Assembly (NCBI GenBank): GCA_903970405.1
Contig: CAJCIT010000023.1
Coordinates: 1-60,319 of the forward strand
Direction: 5' to 3'
DNA length: 60,319 bases
From: Acidobacteriaceae bacterium
GTDB lineage: Bacteria; Acidobacteriota; Terriglobia; Bryobacterales; Bryobacteraceae
The position numbers and the translations under genes are program-made. Every line of letters begins with the position of its first letter. The first letter of the stretch is position 1. The notes under the pieces are model-generated. The model saw only the letters and a list, made by a program, of their open reading frames with translations, did not search any database and had not been told where the DNA came from. Positions 41,056 through 48,267 of this stretch are shown here, one piece after another.

Positions 41056-41161
41056 ACCGCGCGTAAAGTAGGTAAAGCGGCTGACGGCAACTATTCGGAG
41101 CCAGACAGGCGCGCCCACGCCGGCTGAGCCGCGACCAGAACCCGTGTTATCCTGTGTGTTC

Positions 41162-41206
41162 ATGCGGCATGCCTTCCACCATCATCGCCATCCCTTGATG
41201 GGCTGA
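41162..41206 (+). CDS. hisL: his operon leader peptide
   Basis: ATG CGG CAT GCC TTC CAC CAT CAT CGC CAT CCC TTG ATG GGC TGA encodes MRHAFHHHRHPLMG, 14 residues with five histidines (H3, H6, H7, H8, H10). It lies 92 bases before hisI and just ahead of a terminator hairpin, the classic arrangement for ribosome-mediated attenuation of histidine synthesis. When charged tRNA-His is scarce the ribosome should stall on codons 6-10 (41177-41191). No strong ribosome-binding site is visible upstream. Confidence 0.85.
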   Translation: MRHAFHHHRHPLMG

Positions 41207-41288
41207 CTTGGCGGTGCGCTTGCTGAATGAAATCGGTTTTTGCAGTTGAGAAGAGCAGCCCGCCGTGTTGGCGGGCTCTTTGTTTTTC
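41186..41288 (+). promoter_or_regulatory. his attenuator with alternative hairpins
   Basis: Four segments can pair in the classic way. Arm 1 CGCCA (41186-41190, inside the histidine codons) pairs with TGGCG (41209-41213). The overlapping arm 2 GGCGG (41210-41214) can instead pair with CCGCC (41260-41264). That segment is the left arm of the terminator AGCCCGCC/GGCGGGCT (41257-41264/41270-41277). A ribosome stalled at the histidine codons covers arm 1, frees arm 2 and prevents the terminator from forming. Confidence 0.78.
41257..41288 (+). terminator. rho-independent terminator of the his attenuator
   Basis: A perfect 8-bp GC-rich stem AGCCCGCC/GGCGGGCT with loop GTGTT is followed by CTTTGTTTTTC. 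It ends 10 bases before the hisI start, so read-through is required for any his gene to be expressed from the upstream promoter. Confidence 0.88.
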
Positions 41289-41297
41289 AGGACACTC

Positions 41298-41684
41298 ATG
41301 GGTATTGCGCTCGACTTCGATAAACAGAACGGACTGATCGCCGCCGTTGTGCAGGACGCCGCTTCACACCGGGTGCTGATGGTGGGCTATATGAACCGGG
41401 AAGCGTTCGATAAAACCATCGCCACCGGCCACGTCACTTTCTTCAGCCGCTCGCGCCAGAAACTGTGGACCAAGGGCGAAAGCTCAGGCCACTTCCTCCT
41501 GCTCAAATCCATTTTTACTGACTGCGATGCGGACGCCCTCCTCGTACAAGCCGAACAGACCGAGCCTGGCATCTGCCATGAAGGCTACGAAAGCTGCTTC
41601 TTCCGCGCCTGGGAAGACGGCGAATGGAAGACAGCGGAACAGCGCATCTACGACCCCGCCGCGGTTTACGGGGGAACGAAGTGA
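41298..41684 (+). CDS. hisI: phosphoribosyl-AMP cyclohydrolase
   Basis: The 128-residue enzyme opens the adenine ring of PR-AMP, the third step of histidine synthesis. Seen are [50 protein letters not shown], the metal-binding DCDADALLV and EGYESCFFR. It is the stand-alone HisI form; the HisE domain found fused in enterobacteria is absent. AGGA lies five bases before ATG 41298. The stop overlaps the hisG start by 4 bases (GTGA). Confidence 0.96.
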
Positions 41685-42550
41685 AGCTCCGGCTCGGTCT
41701 GCCTAAAGGCAGTCTGGAAAACGCGACGTTTGAACTCTTCCGCAAGGCCGGCTTCAACATCACAACCAGCAGCCGCTCTTACTTCCCCGCCATTGACGAT
41801 CCCGAAATCGACTGCATGTTGATTCGCGCTCAGGAAATGGCCCGTTACGTCGAAGATGGGGTTCTGGATGCCGGCCTCACCGGGCGCGACTGGGTGGAAG
41901 AGAATGAAGCTAAAGTGGTGACCATCACTGATCTGATCTACGCGAAGCAAAGTTTCGGCCGCGTGCGCTGGGTTCTCGCCGCGCCCGAAGTCTCGCCGTT
42001 CCAGCGCGTTGAAGATCTGGAAGGCAAGGTCATCGCCACGGAACTGGTTGCCACCACCAAACGCTATCTGGCTAGCCGGGGCGTGAAAGCCAAGGTGGAA
42101 TTCAGTTGGGGCGCCACTGAAGTGAAGCCGCCCGAACTGGCAGACGCGATCGTCGAAGTCACCGAAACCGGTTCTTCCCTTCGCGCCAACAAGCTACGCA
42201 TCATTGAAACCATTCTCGAATCCAACACCCAGTTCATAGCCAATACTGCGTCCTTTGAGGATGAGTGGAAGCGCCGCAAACTCGAAGACATCAAGATGCT
42301 TCTTGAAGGCGCGATGAATGCGCAAGGAAAAGTCGGCCTGATGCTGAATGTGAAGAAAGCCGACCTCGCCACTGTCCTCTCCATCCTGCCCGCGCTCAAA
42401 AATCCAACCATCTCTCAGCTCAGCGACGAAGAGTGGGTGGCCGTCAACACAATCCTCGAAGAATCCACCGTGCGCGTGATCATCCCGCGGCTTAAGGAAG
42501 CCGGCGCGCAAGGCATCGTCGAATATCCGTTGAACAAGATCGTGCTCTAG
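41681..42550 (+). CDS. hisG: ATP phosphoribosyltransferase, long form
   Basis: This 289-residue enzyme starts the pathway by joining ATP and PRPP. It begins [20 protein letters not shown] and shows the PRPP-binding region [20 protein letters not shown]. The C-terminal about 80 residues ([20 protein letters not shown] onward) form the regulatory ACT-like HisG_C domain, so it should be the histidine-inhibited hexamer that needs no HisZ. GTG 41681 is coupled to the hisI stop and has GGGGAA upstream. Earlier in-frame starts lie inside hisI. Confidence 0.96.
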
Positions 42551-42555
42551 CCGTT

Positions 42556-43797
42556 ATGATTCGGATTCTTCCCCTTTCGGAATTCGAGAAGGTCGCCCAA
42601 CGCCGGCAGACCACGCTGGAACAAGCCGAAGCCGTGGTTGGGCCGATTCTGGAGGCCGTGCGCCGCGAGGGCGACGCCGCGCTGGTCCGTTACGCGCGCC
42701 AGTTCGATTCGCTTGGCGAACAGCCGCTCCGTGTTACCGGGGACGAACTCGCGGCAGCCGCTCTCAACATGGATCACGCCGTTTGGAACGCGGCGGAAAC
42801 CGCCCGGAACAACATTCACGCCTTTGCCGTTACCCAGATTCCTTCGGAGCGTCTCACTGAATTCTCCCCGGGCCGCAGGCTGGGCCAGATTGTCAGGCCG
42901 CTGGATGCCGCCGGCTGTTACATCCCTTCCGGCCGCTATCCGCTGCCATCCACGTTGCTGATGACCGCCGTGCCCGCACAGGCCGCGGGCGTCGCGCACA
43001 TCGTTGTCACATCGCCCAAGCCCAGCGCTGAGATCCTTGGCTGCGCTCACCTGTTGGGGCTGACGGATGTCTTTCGCATCGGCGGCGCACAGGCCATCGC
43101 AGCCATGGCCTTCGGCACCGAATCCATCCCGAAGGTCGATCGCATCGTGGGCCCAGGAAACGTCTACGTCGCCGCCGCCAAGAAACTGCTGGCGGGCGAA
43201 ACCGGCATCGACTTCATCGCCGGTCCCACCGAAATCCTCATCCTCGCCGCCGAAGGGACGCCAAGCTGGATCGCGGCTGACATGCTGGCCCAGGCCGAAC
43301 ACGATACCGACGCCACCGCCATCCTCATCACGCCATCCCGCACCCTCGCCGGCAAGGTCGCCGCGGAGATTGAGCGGCAACTCGAAACGCTTCCCACGGC
43401 CCCCACCGCCCGCATCGCTATTGACCGGAACTCCGCCATCTTCATCGCGCCCAATCTCGATGAAGCCGTCGAATTGACGAACCGCTTCGCACCGGAGCAT
43501 CTGTGCCTGCTGGATGCGTCGCTGCTTCCCAAAATCCGCCATGCCGGCGCCGTCTTCCTTGGCGAATCGTCACCGGAAGCGGCAGGAGACTATGCGGCCG
43601 GTCCCAGTCACGTGCTGCCCACCTCCGGCGCGGCGCGCCTGCGCGGCGGGCTCTCGGCGCTCGACTTCGTCAAAGTCATCGCTGTCCAACAGCTCTCTCA
43701 CCACGCCTTGCTCGATCTCGCGCCCACCATCGCCACTCTCGCCCGCGCTGAAGGTCTGGAGGCTCATGCCCGTTCAGTGGAGATTCGATTTGCCTAG
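42556..43797 (+). CDS. hisD: histidinol dehydrogenase
   Basis: The 413-residue zinc enzyme oxidises histidinol to histidine in two NAD steps. Family marks are DAAGCYIPSGRYPLPSTLLM, VDRIVGPGNVYVAAAKK, GPTEILILAAEG, the zinc and base residues in MLAQAEHDTDATAILIT and FAPEHLCLLD, and GPSHVLPTSGAARLRGGLS. Length and order of motifs are normal. It begins 5 bases after hisG and overlaps the hisC start. Confidence 0.97.
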   Translation: MIRILPLSEFEKVAQRRQTTLEQAEAVVGPILEAVRREGDAALVRYARQFDSLGEQPLRVTGDELAAAALNMDHAVWNAAETARNNIHAFAVTQIPSERLTEFSPGRRLGQIVRPLDAAGCYIPSGRYPLPSTLLMTAVPAQAAGVAHIVVTSPKPSAEILGCAHLLGLTDVFRIGGAQAIAAMAFGTESIPKVDRIVGPGNVYVAAAKKLLAGETGIDFIAGPTEILILAAEGTPSWIAADMLAQAEHDTDATAILITPSRTLAGKVAAEIERQLETLPTAPTARIAIDRNSAIFIAPNLDEAVELTNRFAPEHLCLLDASLLPKIRHAGAVFLGESSPEAAGDYAAGPSHVLPTSGAARLRGGLSALDFVKVIAVQQLSHHALLDLAPTIATLARAEGLEAHARSVEIRFA

Positions 43798-44869
43798 CTC
43801 ATCTAAGACGGCACAAGAAACCAGGCTGCAGCCTCGAAATGCCGTGCTGGAGATGGCGGCCTACCATCCGCCGAGTTCCGGCCGCCGCAACAAGCTCCGT
43901 CTCGATTTCAATGAGAACACCGTCGGCTGCCCGCCGCATGTCCTCGATTTCATCAAGCGCTACCTGACCGCCGCCGACCTCAGCATCTACCCGGAGTACG
44001 AAGCCGCCCGTGAAGACCTCGCCGTCTACTTTCGCGTCAGGCCGGAAGAGATGACGCTCACCAATGGCACCGATGAGGCCATTCAACTTGTGGTGAACAC
44101 TTTCGTGGATGACGATGACGAGGTGCTGATCCTGCGCCCGTCCTATGCCATGTATCGGTTCTATGCGCAACTGGCTGGGGCGTCGGTGCACGAAATCGAT
44201 TTCCGCGTCGAGAAACTGGCCTTCCCGCTGGAAGAGATCCTCAATCGCATCACCCCCGCCACGCGCGGTATTTTCATTAGCAATCCCAATAACCCCACCG
44301 GCACGGGCACCACCGCCGCGGCGCTCGAAAAGATTCTTCTCCACGCGCCAAACGCCGCGGTTCTGGTGGACGAAGCCTATTATGAATTCTGCGGCATCAC
44401 CATGTTGCCGCTTCTTCACAAACACCAAAACCTTTTCGTCAGCCGGACCTTCTCGAAGATCTATGGCATGGCCGGGCTGCGCTGCGGCGTCCTGTTCTCG
44501 CAAGCGGGCAACATGGGACACATCCGCAAGGCGCAATCGCCCTATAGCGTGAATATTCTGGCCGCCATGGCCGCCCGCATCGCCGTGCAGGATCACACCT
44601 TCGTCGAAGAGTTCGTGGTGGAAATCCTGGCCGCGAAGGAATTGCTCTACGTGGGTCTGGAAAAGCTTGGCATTCCCTACATTGAGAGCAAAGCCAACTT
44701 CGTACTGATCGACGCCGGCGCCCGGTCGCTGGAGATTCGCGATGAGCTCCGCAAGCGCGGCATCCTGGTTCGCGAACGCGGGTATGAATTGCCCGGCAGC
44801 GTCCGCATCACCGTCGGCACGCGCGATCAAATCCGCCAGCTTCTGGCTGAACTTCAGGAGATCTGGTAA
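43766..44869 (+). CDS. hisC: histidinol-phosphate aminotransferase
   Basis: The 367-residue PLP enzyme shows LRLDFNENTVGCPP, YPEYEAAREDLAVYF, LTNGTDEAIQLVVNTF, FISNPNNPTGTGT, VLVDEAYYEFCG and the PLP lysine in RTFSKIYGMAGLRCG. ATG 43766 overlaps hisD by 32 bases. A TTG at 43790 has GGAG at a better distance (7 bases) and gives a start eight residues shorter; both are plausible. The frame continues far upstream inside hisD, which is coincidental. Confidence 0.94.
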   Translation: MPVQWRFDLPSSSKTAQETRLQPRNAVLEMAAYHPPSSGRRNKLRLDFNENTVGCPPHVLDFIKRYLTAADLSIYPEYEAAREDLAVYFRVRPEEMTLTNGTDEAIQLVVNTFVDDDDEVLILRPSYAMYRFYAQLAGASVHEIDFRVEKLAFPLEEILNRITPATRGIFISNPNNPTGTGTTAAALEKILLHAPNAAVLVDEAYYEFCGITMLPLLHKHQNLFVSRTFSKIYGMAGLRCGVLFSQAGNMGHIRKAQSPYSVNILAAMAARIAVQDHTFVEEFVVEILAAKELLYVGLEKLGIPYIESKANFVLIDAGARSLEIRDELRKRGILVRERGYELPGSVRITVGTRDQIRQLLAELQEIW

Positions 44870-45594
44870 TGAGCCGGGCACAGCCGCTGCTTCCCAACCC
44901 TGACGTCTTCATCTTCGACATGGATGGAGTTCTTGCCGAAGTAACCGCCAGCTATCGAGAGACCATCGTTTCCACCGTCCGCCATTTCACCGGACGATCC
45001 GTGACCAATGAAACCATCCAGGCGTTCAAGAACGCCGGTGGCTGGAACAACGATTGGGAACTCTCCCACCGCCTCATTGCCGACCTGGGCCATCAGGTCA
45101 CTTACCAAGCCGTTGTTGACGCGTTCAATCGCATCTTCCTGGGCGACGGCTCAACGCCCGGACTGATCGATCGGGAATCCTGGATTCCCAAGCCCGGTCT
45201 GCTTGAAACCCTGGCGGAGACTTATCCGCTCGGCATCTTTACCGGCCGCTTGCGCTACGAACTTGATGTAACCCTGGCGCGCTTCGTTCCGGATCTGCGT
45301 TTCCACCCCACGATCACCGCGGACGATGTAGTGCGGCCCAAGCCCGCGCCCGATGGCCTTCACACGATCCAGCGGCTCTTTCCCCGCAAGACCATTTGGT
45401 ACTTCGGCGATACTGTGGACGACGCTCGCAGCGCCCGTGACGCAAGCGTCCCGTTCTTCGGCGTTGCGTCACCCGATTCTCTGCGCCGCGATGAGTTAGT
45501 CTCGCGGCTTCATGAATACGGCGCTTTGCGCGTCATCGCCAACATCAATGAAATCGGCTGTCTCCTCAAAGAAACGGAGGCGTCCGTAGCGTGA
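44869..45594 (+). CDS. HAD-superfamily hydrolase, candidate histidinol-phosphatase
   Basis: The 241-residue protein is a HAD subfamily IA-type phosphatase. Motif I is [12 protein letters not shown] (nucleophile D17, D19), motif II lies in [12 protein letters not shown], and the motif III/IV region is [11 protein letters not shown] and [17 protein letters not shown] helical cap lies between motifs I and II. It is translationally locked into the his operon (TAATG with hisC, GTGA with hisB). The operon otherwise lacks the phosphatase that makes histidinol, so this gene is the best candidate. A related HAD clade occurs near hisB in some cyanobacteria (recollection). Activity is inferred. Confidence 0.85.
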
Positions 45595-46178
45595 GAGAGT
45601 CAACGGTGGAACGTATTACCAAAGAGACTCAGATCCAGGGTTCGCTACGAATTGAAGGCGCCGGGGCCTACGATGTCTCAACCGGCATTCGATTTCTCGA
45701 TCACATGCTCGAACTCTTCTCTAAGCACGGAGGCTTCGATCTGACGCTCAAAGCCACCGGCGACCTGGAAGTCGATCAGCATCACACCGTCGAGGATTGC
45801 GGCATCGTCCTGGGGCAGCTTTTCTCGAAGGCTCTGAGGGATCGCCGCGGCATCAATCGCGCCGGTTACTTCGTCCAAACGATGGATGAAACACTCGCCG
45901 TGGCCGCGCTTGATCTCGGCGGCCGTCCCACGCTCGTCTATGACCAGCAGGTGAACGTCGTTCACGTCGGCGAGCTGCAGACCGAACTCCTCCACGATTT
46001 CTTTGAAGGCTTCGCGAACCACGCTGGCGCCAATGTCCACGTCAAGGTTCTGTACGGACGATCGAACCATCACAAGATCGAGGCGATCTTCAAGTGCTTC
46101 GCTCGCGCTCTGCGTTACGCCTGTTCCACCGACGAACGGCTCAAAGACCAACTGCCCTCCACGAAAGGACTGCTATGA
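45591..46178 (+). CDS. hisB: imidazoleglycerol-phosphate dehydratase
   Basis: The 195-residue, single-domain HisB removes water from IGP. It has [20 protein letters not shown], the manganese-binding [11 protein letters not shown] and the C-terminal [18 protein letters not shown]. The enterobacterial N-terminal phosphatase domain is absent, consistent with a separate phosphatase gene just upstream. GTG 45591 overlaps the HAD gene stop; the stop TGA overlaps the hisH ATG. Confidence 0.96.
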
Positions 46179-46774
46179 CGGTCATCGTCGACTACGGCGC
46201 GGGCAATCTCCGCTCCGTCCAGAACACGCTCGATGAACTCGGCGCGCAATACACCGTTTCGAACCAGGCGGCCGTCATCGCCTCCGCGGAAAAACTCATC
46301 CTGCCCGGAGTCGGCCACTTCGGTCAGATGATGACCGCGCTTGACAATCTTTGCCTGCGGGATCCCATTCTCAATCGCATCTCTGCCGGTATTCCAGCCC
46401 TTGGCATCTGCCTCGGTCTCCAGAGCCTGTTTGAGCGCAGTGAGGAAGCGCCGCAGATCAAGGGCTTCGGCATTTTTCCCGGAACGGTGAAGCGCTTCGA
46501 AGGCGACGTCCGCGTGCCGCACATGGGTTGGAACTCGCTCGATGCCATAAAGCCCTCGCGCCTCCTCGAAGGCCTAGGCGCACAGCCTTACGCGTATTTC
46601 GCCAACAGTTACTACGCTCCGGTCTTTCCGGAAACCGTCGCCACCACGGAGTACGTCCAACCGTTCACTTCAGTTCTCGAAGCCGGGAACATCTTTGGCA
46701 TCCAGTGCCATCCCGAAAAATCAGGGCCCGTCGGCTTGCGCATCGTGAAGAATTTCCTGGATCTGGACACATAA
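46175..46774 (+). CDS. hisH: imidazole glycerol phosphate synthase, glutaminase subunit
   Basis: The 199-residue class I amidotransferase supplies ammonia to HisF. It starts [18 protein letters not shown], with nucleophile C79 in LGICLGLQ and the H-x-E pair in [12 protein letters not shown], plus the oxyanion-strand [12 protein letters not shown] 46175 overlaps the hisB stop by 4 bases; the longer open frame lies within hisB. hisF follows after 6 bases. Confidence 0.96.
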
Positions 46775-46780
46775 CCGGCG

Positions 46781-47563
46781 ATGCTTGCGAAGCGAATCAT
46801 CCCTTGTCTCGATGTCACCGAAGGCCGCGTGGTGAAAGGCGTGAACTTCGTCGGGCTTCGCGATGCCGGCGATCCGGTCGAGCTCGCCGAACGCTACAAC
46901 GATCAGGGCGCGGACGAGCTGGTCTTCCTCGATATCACCGCCTCAAGCGACGACCGCGAAACGATGGTGGATGTGGTCGCCCGCACGGCCCGCCGCGTCT
47001 TCATCCCGCTCACCGTTGGGGGCGGCATTCGCTCGGTGGCCGATGCGCGCAAGATTCTCCTGGCCGGCGCCGACAAGGTCAGTGTCAACACCTCCGCTGT
47101 CCACCGCCCGGAGCTGATCCACGAACTCAGCGAGGAGTTCGGCGCACAAGCAGTGGTCCTGGCCATCGACGCGCGTTGTTCCGGTTACGACCGCTGGAAT
47201 GTTTTTACGAAAGGAGGCCGTCACGATGAGGGCCTTGACGCCGTGGAGTGGGCCCGCCACGGTGAATCTTTGGGCGCGGGCGAAATCCTGCTCACCTCCA
47301 TGGATACCGACGGTGTCCAAACCGGATTTGACTGCGACCTGACACGCTGCGTCGCTGCCGCCACCACCATTCCCGTCATCGCCTCCGGCGGAGCGGGCAA
47401 GCCCGAAGATTTTGTAACCGTGTTAACCACTGGCCGTGCCGACGCGGCGCTCGCCGCCTCCGTCTTTCACTACGGCAAATACACTGTGGCTGACTTGAAG
47501 GCTGTCTTGTCGAAGGCCGGCGTACCCGTTCGGCCCGCGCCCGCGCTGCCGCCAATTTCATGA
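46781..47563 (+). CDS. hisF: imidazole glycerol phosphate synthase, cyclase subunit
   Basis: This 260-residue TIM barrel closes the imidazole ring. It has [20 protein letters not shown] with the first catalytic aspartate, [32 protein letters not shown] with the second aspartate, [14 protein letters not shown] and [16 protein letters not shown]. The length is slightly above the usual 252-256. The stop overlaps hisA by 4 bases. Confidence 0.97.
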
Positions 47564-48267
47564 TTGTTCCCTGCATCGACATCATGGGCGGCAAGGTGGT
47601 CCAACTCATTCAAGGCCGTGAACAGGCGCTGGAAGGCGGCACCGTCGAAGAGATGCTGCGCCTCTTCGCCGGCTTTCAGCAGATTCAAGTCATCGATGTC
47701 GACGCGGCCATTGGCAACGGCGCCAATAACGAAATGGTGGACGCCATCTCCCAGCGCGTCACCGCGCGAGTGGGAGGCGGCGTTCGCTCAGCCCGTCGCG
47801 CCCAGGACCTGGTCGCTTGTGGCGCTTATCGCGTAATCGTCGGGACCTCGGCATTCACCGCCGGCGGGCCTAACACCACATTGCTCCGGCAATTGGCCGA
47901 CGCCGTGGGCGCCGAACGGCTGGTGATCGCGCTCGATAGCAAAGACGGCTACATTGTCGTCAAGGGCTGGCGCGAATCCACCTCCCTTCGCGCCGTCGAC
48001 ATCGTTCATGAACTCGACCCTTACTGCGGCGGCTACCTCTGCACCTATGTCGACAAAGAAGGCATGATGCAGGGCACCGACCTGGAGTGGTTCTCCACCT
48101 TGCGCCATTCAACGAACCGCGAAATCACCGCTGCCGGTGGCATCACAACGATGGAAGATGTATATGCCCTCAGCGCCATGAACATTCACTGCGCCATCGG
48201 CATGGCCATCTATACGGGCCGCTTGCCTCTCGCCGAGCTTGCGGAATTCAATGCGCGGAACAGATGA
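47560..48267 (+). CDS. hisA: ProFAR isomerase (HisA)
   Basis: The 235-residue TIM barrel does the Amadori rearrangement of ProFAR. It has [20 protein letters not shown] with the catalytic base aspartate, [40 protein letters not shown] with the second catalytic aspartate, and [13 protein letters not shown]. The sequence departs from the common bacterial pattern at several points (PCIDIMGG rather than PAIDLxxG), but both catalytic residues and phosphate-binding glycines are kept. It is the last gene of the operon and is followed by a strong palindrome. Confidence 0.92.

Follow-up and report, generated by a model that had tools for sequence, protein, structure and literature searches.

Control of the his operon by attenuation is a textbook system known from the enterobacteria, and the question raised by the present locus is whether the same logic is at work in front of the his genes of a soil acidobacterium. 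The window, by which we mean the whole 60,319-nucleotide stretch of DNA analysed here, carries nine his-operon genes in tandem according to NCBIfam (41298 to 48267), and an earlier, sequence-only reading had pointed to a histidine-rich ORF, mutually exclusive pairings and a terminator just ahead of them. That reading had also guessed at an acidobacterium, and the hisI loci nearest to the one in the window do belong to the Bryobacterales, in the Acidobacteriota. We regard it as highly probable, from the sequence comparisons set out below, that the element would attenuate transcription of the his operon in a ribosome-mediated way. Its parts are as follows:

41145-41153, plus strand: putative extended -10 element of a promoter, TGtTATCCT, with a gap of 8 nt to the leader ATG (from the sequence and from relatives aligned by eye)
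41162-41206, plus strand: leader peptide ORF (hisL), MRHAFHHHRHPLMG and stop, without Shine-Dalgarno; a His-rich ORF is kept here in 64 loci
41177-41191, plus strand: control codons His6 His7 His8 Arg9 His10 (CAC CAT CAT CGC CAT)
41186-41192, plus strand: arm 1, CGCCATC, which pairs with TGGCG (41209-41213) or GATGG (41197-41201) if free of the ribosome
41197-41214, plus strand: arm 2, GATGGGCTGACTTGGCGG, predicted 5' strand of the antiterminator, overlapping the last codons and the stop (from constrained folding)
41256-41265, plus strand: arm 3, CAGCCCGCCG, common to antiterminator and terminator
41257-41287, plus strand: intrinsic terminator, AGCCCGCCG tgt TGGCGGGCT plus CTTTGTTTTT; a clean terminator lies here in 58 of 64 loci
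41298-41684, plus strand: hisI, phosphoribosyl-AMP cyclohydrolase, first gene of the operon (NF000768, 148 bits, cut-off 126)
41681-48267, plus strand: hisG, hisD, hisC, a HAD-family hydrolase gene, hisB, hisH, hisF and hisA (NCBIfam)

The names of hisA and the HAD-family gene come from best NCBIfam matches that lie under the curated cut-offs. The latter gene, at 44869-45594 between hisC and hisB, could encode a histidinol-phosphatase, going by a sub-cut-off match to TIGR01548.

Read directly from the sequence, the leader is the 14-codon, five-histidine ORF that had been claimed: ATG CGG CAT GCC TTC CAC CAT CAT CGC CAT CCC TTG ATG GGC TGA, giving M R H A F H H H R H P L M G (5 His in 14 codons), with the TGA at 41204-41206. 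Short ORFs with at least five His in nine codons number one in the window vs. 0.07 per dinucleotide-shuffled window. The ORF, the pairings, the terminator and hisI follow each other in the order first described; the 10-nt spacing to hisI also holds, with the small correction that the T tail ends at 41287 and the ATG stands at 41298. The locus thus has a short leader ORF rich in codons for the product amino acid, 5' of the biosynthetic operon, with an intrinsic terminator between this ORF and the first structural gene. The whole leader is only about 125 nt long and is filled by the ORF and the hairpins; the 3' part of the control codons (CGCCAT) doubles as arm 1, the overlap of stall codons and arm that had been noticed before.

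The complementary pieces are CGCCA (41186-41190), TGGCGG (41209-41214) and CCGCC (41260-41264), so the claimed pairings CGCCA/TGGCG and GGCGG/CCGCC all exist, as does the T-tailed terminator. The terminator stem occupies 41257-41277, is followed by the tail CTTTGTTTTT and begins 50 nt after the leader stop; a terminator search returned the same stem as the best of the region. In constrained folding an untranslated leader gives the protector, with arm 1 paired to arm 2, alongside the terminator. Masking the His codons shifts the predicted fold from protector plus terminator to antiterminator, an outcome in favour of the sequence-only reading, which had proposed this check, and when the mask is extended to the stop codon neither antiterminator is possible in the ribosome-free part and the terminator alone is left. 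An antiterminator exclusive with the terminator, freed by a stall at the control codons and blocked by a ribosome at the stop, is therefore predicted. The GGCGG earlier proposed as arm 2 is usable, though only as one of two: with the A site on His10 the predicted antiterminator is TGGCGG/GGCGG (41209/41210-41214) against CCGCC (41260-41264), while with the A site on His6-His8 a stronger one is predicted, GATGGGCTG (41197-41205) against CAGCCC (41256-41261). Both would block the 5' arm of the terminator ahead of the synthesis of its 3' arm. The predicted sequestration of arm 3 is 0.81 for a ribosome at the last His vs. 0.23 for one at the stop codon, a contrast that is partly trivial in that more sequence is masked at the stop. 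In the full leader at equilibrium the terminator usually wins, so that the model needs the antiterminator to form first, as in E. coli. The fold energy of 41150-41310 is unexceptional (z -1.3); the sequence of the window alone would therefore not prove the model, and most of the weight is carried by conservation in relatives.

Loci for comparison were gathered via hisI from related genomes (59 of 61 with hisI), from 80 named loci and from a phylum-wide sample. A His-rich short ORF lies 5' of hisI in 64 acidobacterial loci, in most of them 60-200 nt upstream, with a clean terminator 3' of the ORF in 58; in these His-leader loci the segment after the His codons is complementary to the 5' arm of the terminator. 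The alignment of upstream regions proposed earlier comes out in favour of the device, the His codons being kept before hisI in several families whose sequence around them diverges. A strict pattern, TATACT-N5-9-ATG-N6-36-(His)3, matched 38 of 299 genomes of the class (reversed control, 6), and some 20 of the 30 pattern loci that were fetched proved to be His leaders directly before hisI. The distribution within the Acidobacteriota is patchy, taking in the window's family, several other families of the class and four families listed only as belonging to the same phylum (f29, f38, f51 and f63). Many other families of the phylum showed no His leader upstream of hisI; since hisI is perhaps not the first gene in some of them, its absence there is not proof. 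Three relatives (L008, L036 and L015) likewise have no His leader upstream of hisI. Two of these, L008 and L036, keep a -10 box and a terminator and have lost the leader ORF, which leaves no more than some 14-24 nt between the box and the terminator stem; the device may have decayed there, or the terminator may respond to some other input. The 39 named loci ranked last (L072-L110), almost all of which come from other phyla, showed no His leader apart from two Poribacteria. In these (L096 and L107; also L105 and L108) a leader ORF with a mixed HHWHWWWH run, preceded by a purine-rich, Shine-Dalgarno-like stretch, stands with a terminator-like hairpin before hisI, perhaps as a joint His/Trp attenuator.

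Co-variation of the stems, the other check suggested at the outset, is seen between lineages, where a change in arm 2 goes with one in the terminator arm. The Bryobacterales nearest to the window have GGCGA/GGCGG, just past the stop codon, as arm 2 and CCCGCC as arm 3; in most of the 15 relatives from the Bryobacterales the two codons for R-H, CGCCAY, pair with a GGCG further downstream. The rest of the window's family has an arm 2 of CGRCGGGC within the last codons and an arm 3 of GCCCGCCG. A third group has TGTCAGYGGGC (read as Cys-Gln-Trp/Arg-Ala) as arm 2 and GCCCGCTGAC as arm 3; in 14 of its loci a 12-bp antiterminator is 93% paired, vs. 33-45% when slid. Pairing of arm 2 with arm 3 exceeds that of dinucleotide-shuffled spacers in each of the four lineage groups (Stouffer -8.3, -8.3, -9.5 and -6.1, that of the antiterminator of group G1 being -8.3), and each locus's own duplex is stronger than swapped ones (p 0.0002 for all loci, 0.0004 within groups), the shuffle and swap statistics both being inflated by the relatedness of the loci. 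Close groups hold mainly invariant pairs or G-U variants and few classical two-sided compensations; with helices that hardly differ, counting compensatory changes in a single subgroup is uninformative. RNAalifold, applied to the Bryobacterales alignment, recovered hardly anything apart from the terminator and one short hairpin, the arms being blurred by gaps in the alignment, and per-sequence folding and duplex tests were therefore used. These elements, their conservation, their capacity to pair and their co-variation between loci are shown by the sequences.

Where transcription begins is a point that the sequence-only reading had passed over. In 51 of the 64 loci, across families, the leader ATG is preceded at a gap of 8-10 nt by a box of the form TAnnnT; TGn precedes the box in 27 of the 53 loci with a gap of 6-10 (often as TGnTATACT), and a perfect TTGACA is also present in 13 of these 53. 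Shine-Dalgarno-like tetramers (GGAG, GAGG or AGGA at -17 to -4) occur in only 4 of the 64 leaders. A -10 box immediately 5' of the leader ATG, with no Shine-Dalgarno sequence, is the arrangement of a leaderless attenuator, and together these counts make a leaderless transcript probable, one that begins no more than about 3 nt from the leader ATG, as suggested by the position of the box; the leader peptide would then probably be translated from that leaderless message. A TA-like signal about 10 bp before the start codon is an accepted mark of leaderless genes, which have been estimated at 13.3% in Acidobacteria (Zheng et al., PMC3160421). A more conventional leader, with a 5' UTR, a start further upstream, E. 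coli-like attenuation and a -10 box near the ATG by coincidence, would fit the window's own box, which is a weak match (TATCCT, 4/6) with a poor -35, the start site being read from sequence; we consider it unlikely, given the recurrence of the box at one distance across families, the scarcity of Shine-Dalgarno-like tetramers and the acceptance of such a signal as a mark of leaderless genes, together with their estimated share in Acidobacteria. A start downstream of 41288, which had been named as fatal to the whole idea, would likewise run against the conserved box before the leader ATG. Class-wide, TATACT 6-9 nt before an ATG is several-fold commoner than its reversed control, often ahead of signal-peptide-like N-termini, and leaderless genes therefore look common in the class.

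The proposed sequence of events for the leaderless attenuator, including start site, stalling, termination and the response to histidine, would run as follows. RNA polymerase would begin at the A of the leader ATG or just ahead of it, so that a ribosome would load on a leaderless transcript. When His-tRNA is scarce the ribosome would stall at His6-His10, covering arm 1 and leaving arm 2 free to pair with arm 3 as antiterminator before arm 4 is made, and the polymerase would continue into hisI and the remaining operon. With plentiful His-tRNA the ribosome would get to the stop codon and cover arm 2; arm 3 would therefore pair with arm 4 as terminator and transcription would stop before hisI. 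Arms 1 and 2 would pair if there were no translation, and the terminator would form in that case as well. Conservation, masked folds and co-variation of the arms all favour the earlier suggestion that enterobacterial logic operates here.

Other explanations of the same elements have to be weighed against this. The terminator might do no more than close a short transcript, or might act as a constitutive brake, with a peptide that binds metals, as His clusters do, or is functional in some other way; the few relatives that retain promoter and terminator without the peptide lend this some support, yet the ORF sits before his genes, the residues outside the His run vary freely while the RNA stays complementary to the terminator, and a matching aromatic version stands before a DAHP-synthase-like gene, so that we find the idea highly improbable. 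We give marginally less credence still to histidine being sensed by a T-box, a riboswitch or a protein-bound leader: T-boxes and the HisR repressor do control his genes in other phyla (PMC9413887), whereas here no Rfam family reached its gathering score in the relatives, the matches in the window were all sub-threshold, and the leader of about 125 nt is taken up by ORF and hairpins. A Trp_leader match of 22.7 bits was rejected as falling under its cut-off of 41.

Comparison with known systems bears on how new the attenuator would be. It resembles the enterobacterial his attenuator (Rfam RF00514) in its His-codon leader peptide, in the intrinsic terminator just before the first his gene and in the mutually exclusive protector, antiterminator and terminator pairings. 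It differs in that the first gene here is hisI rather than hisG, that the acidobacterial leaders have about 14-27 codons with 3-6 clustered His as against seven consecutive His, that the start is probably leaderless and the window's leader so short, and that in most acidobacterial lineages arm 2 lies within the last leader codons. Although it appears to work alike, it does not belong to RF00514 by covariance model: none of the 61 related genomes matched above the gathering score, with the E. coli control positive. The sequence-only reading had stressed a place outside the Proteobacteria; the acidobacterial attenuator is supported, but His leaders were already known in Firmicutes (PMC2965389, PMC9413887). 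Those of Bacillus hisS/hisZ, C. difficile and the Erysipelotrichales are alike in His-rich peptide and terminator, differ in phylum, genes and sequence, and are not described as leaderless in the accessible portions of these two papers. In the open literature we found neither a his attenuator nor a leaderless attenuator for Acidobacteriota, so what would be new here is a classical-type his attenuator in a phylum for which none was found described. The poly-Cys ORFs of mycobacteria are said to be leaderless attenuator leader peptides. Others are trpL of S. meliloti (PMC7298713) and leuL, trpL and ilvL of Streptomyces lividans (PMC8079986). All of these share an mRNA starting at the ATG and ribosome-mediated attenuation; they concern other amino acids and phyla, and the available parts of the sources describe no his attenuator among them.

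A sister device appears in the same bacteria. In relatives, a DAHP-synthase-like gene, assigned by eye, is preceded at about 16 of 31 loci by a leaderless aromatic leader such as MVLMSARYWFWWYPEAV, with an SFRFWFW core, a conserved antiterminator-like GAGTGGCGTTGG and a terminator CCAACCCACTC..GAGTGGGT (L194:89-230; L214, L216, L218, L219, L221, L223-L225, L228, L232, L234-L237 and L240). These leaders would make up a second attenuator family. Regions upstream of ilvB, leuA and trpE in relatives yielded no leader peptides, in a survey whose controls detected 8/8 his and 8/10 aromatic leaders. Strict Trp and Leu leader-pattern matches were set aside, being mostly N-termini of ordinary proteins, many of them signal-peptide-like.

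These observations incline us, with some reserve, to the view that leaderless ribosome-mediated attenuation is an old and standard form of amino-acid control in the Acidobacteriota, occurring in several families and apparently more than one class, serving at least histidine (the hisI operon) and aromatic (DAHP synthase) synthesis, and having an RNA architecture of its own with the antiterminator arm written into the last leader codons. The leader would offer a very small natural system for studying the coupling of ribosome and polymerase from a leaderless start, and its recurrence suggests that many acidobacterial genomes may hold very small leader genes, so far unannotated, for the synthesis of histidine and aromatic amino acids.
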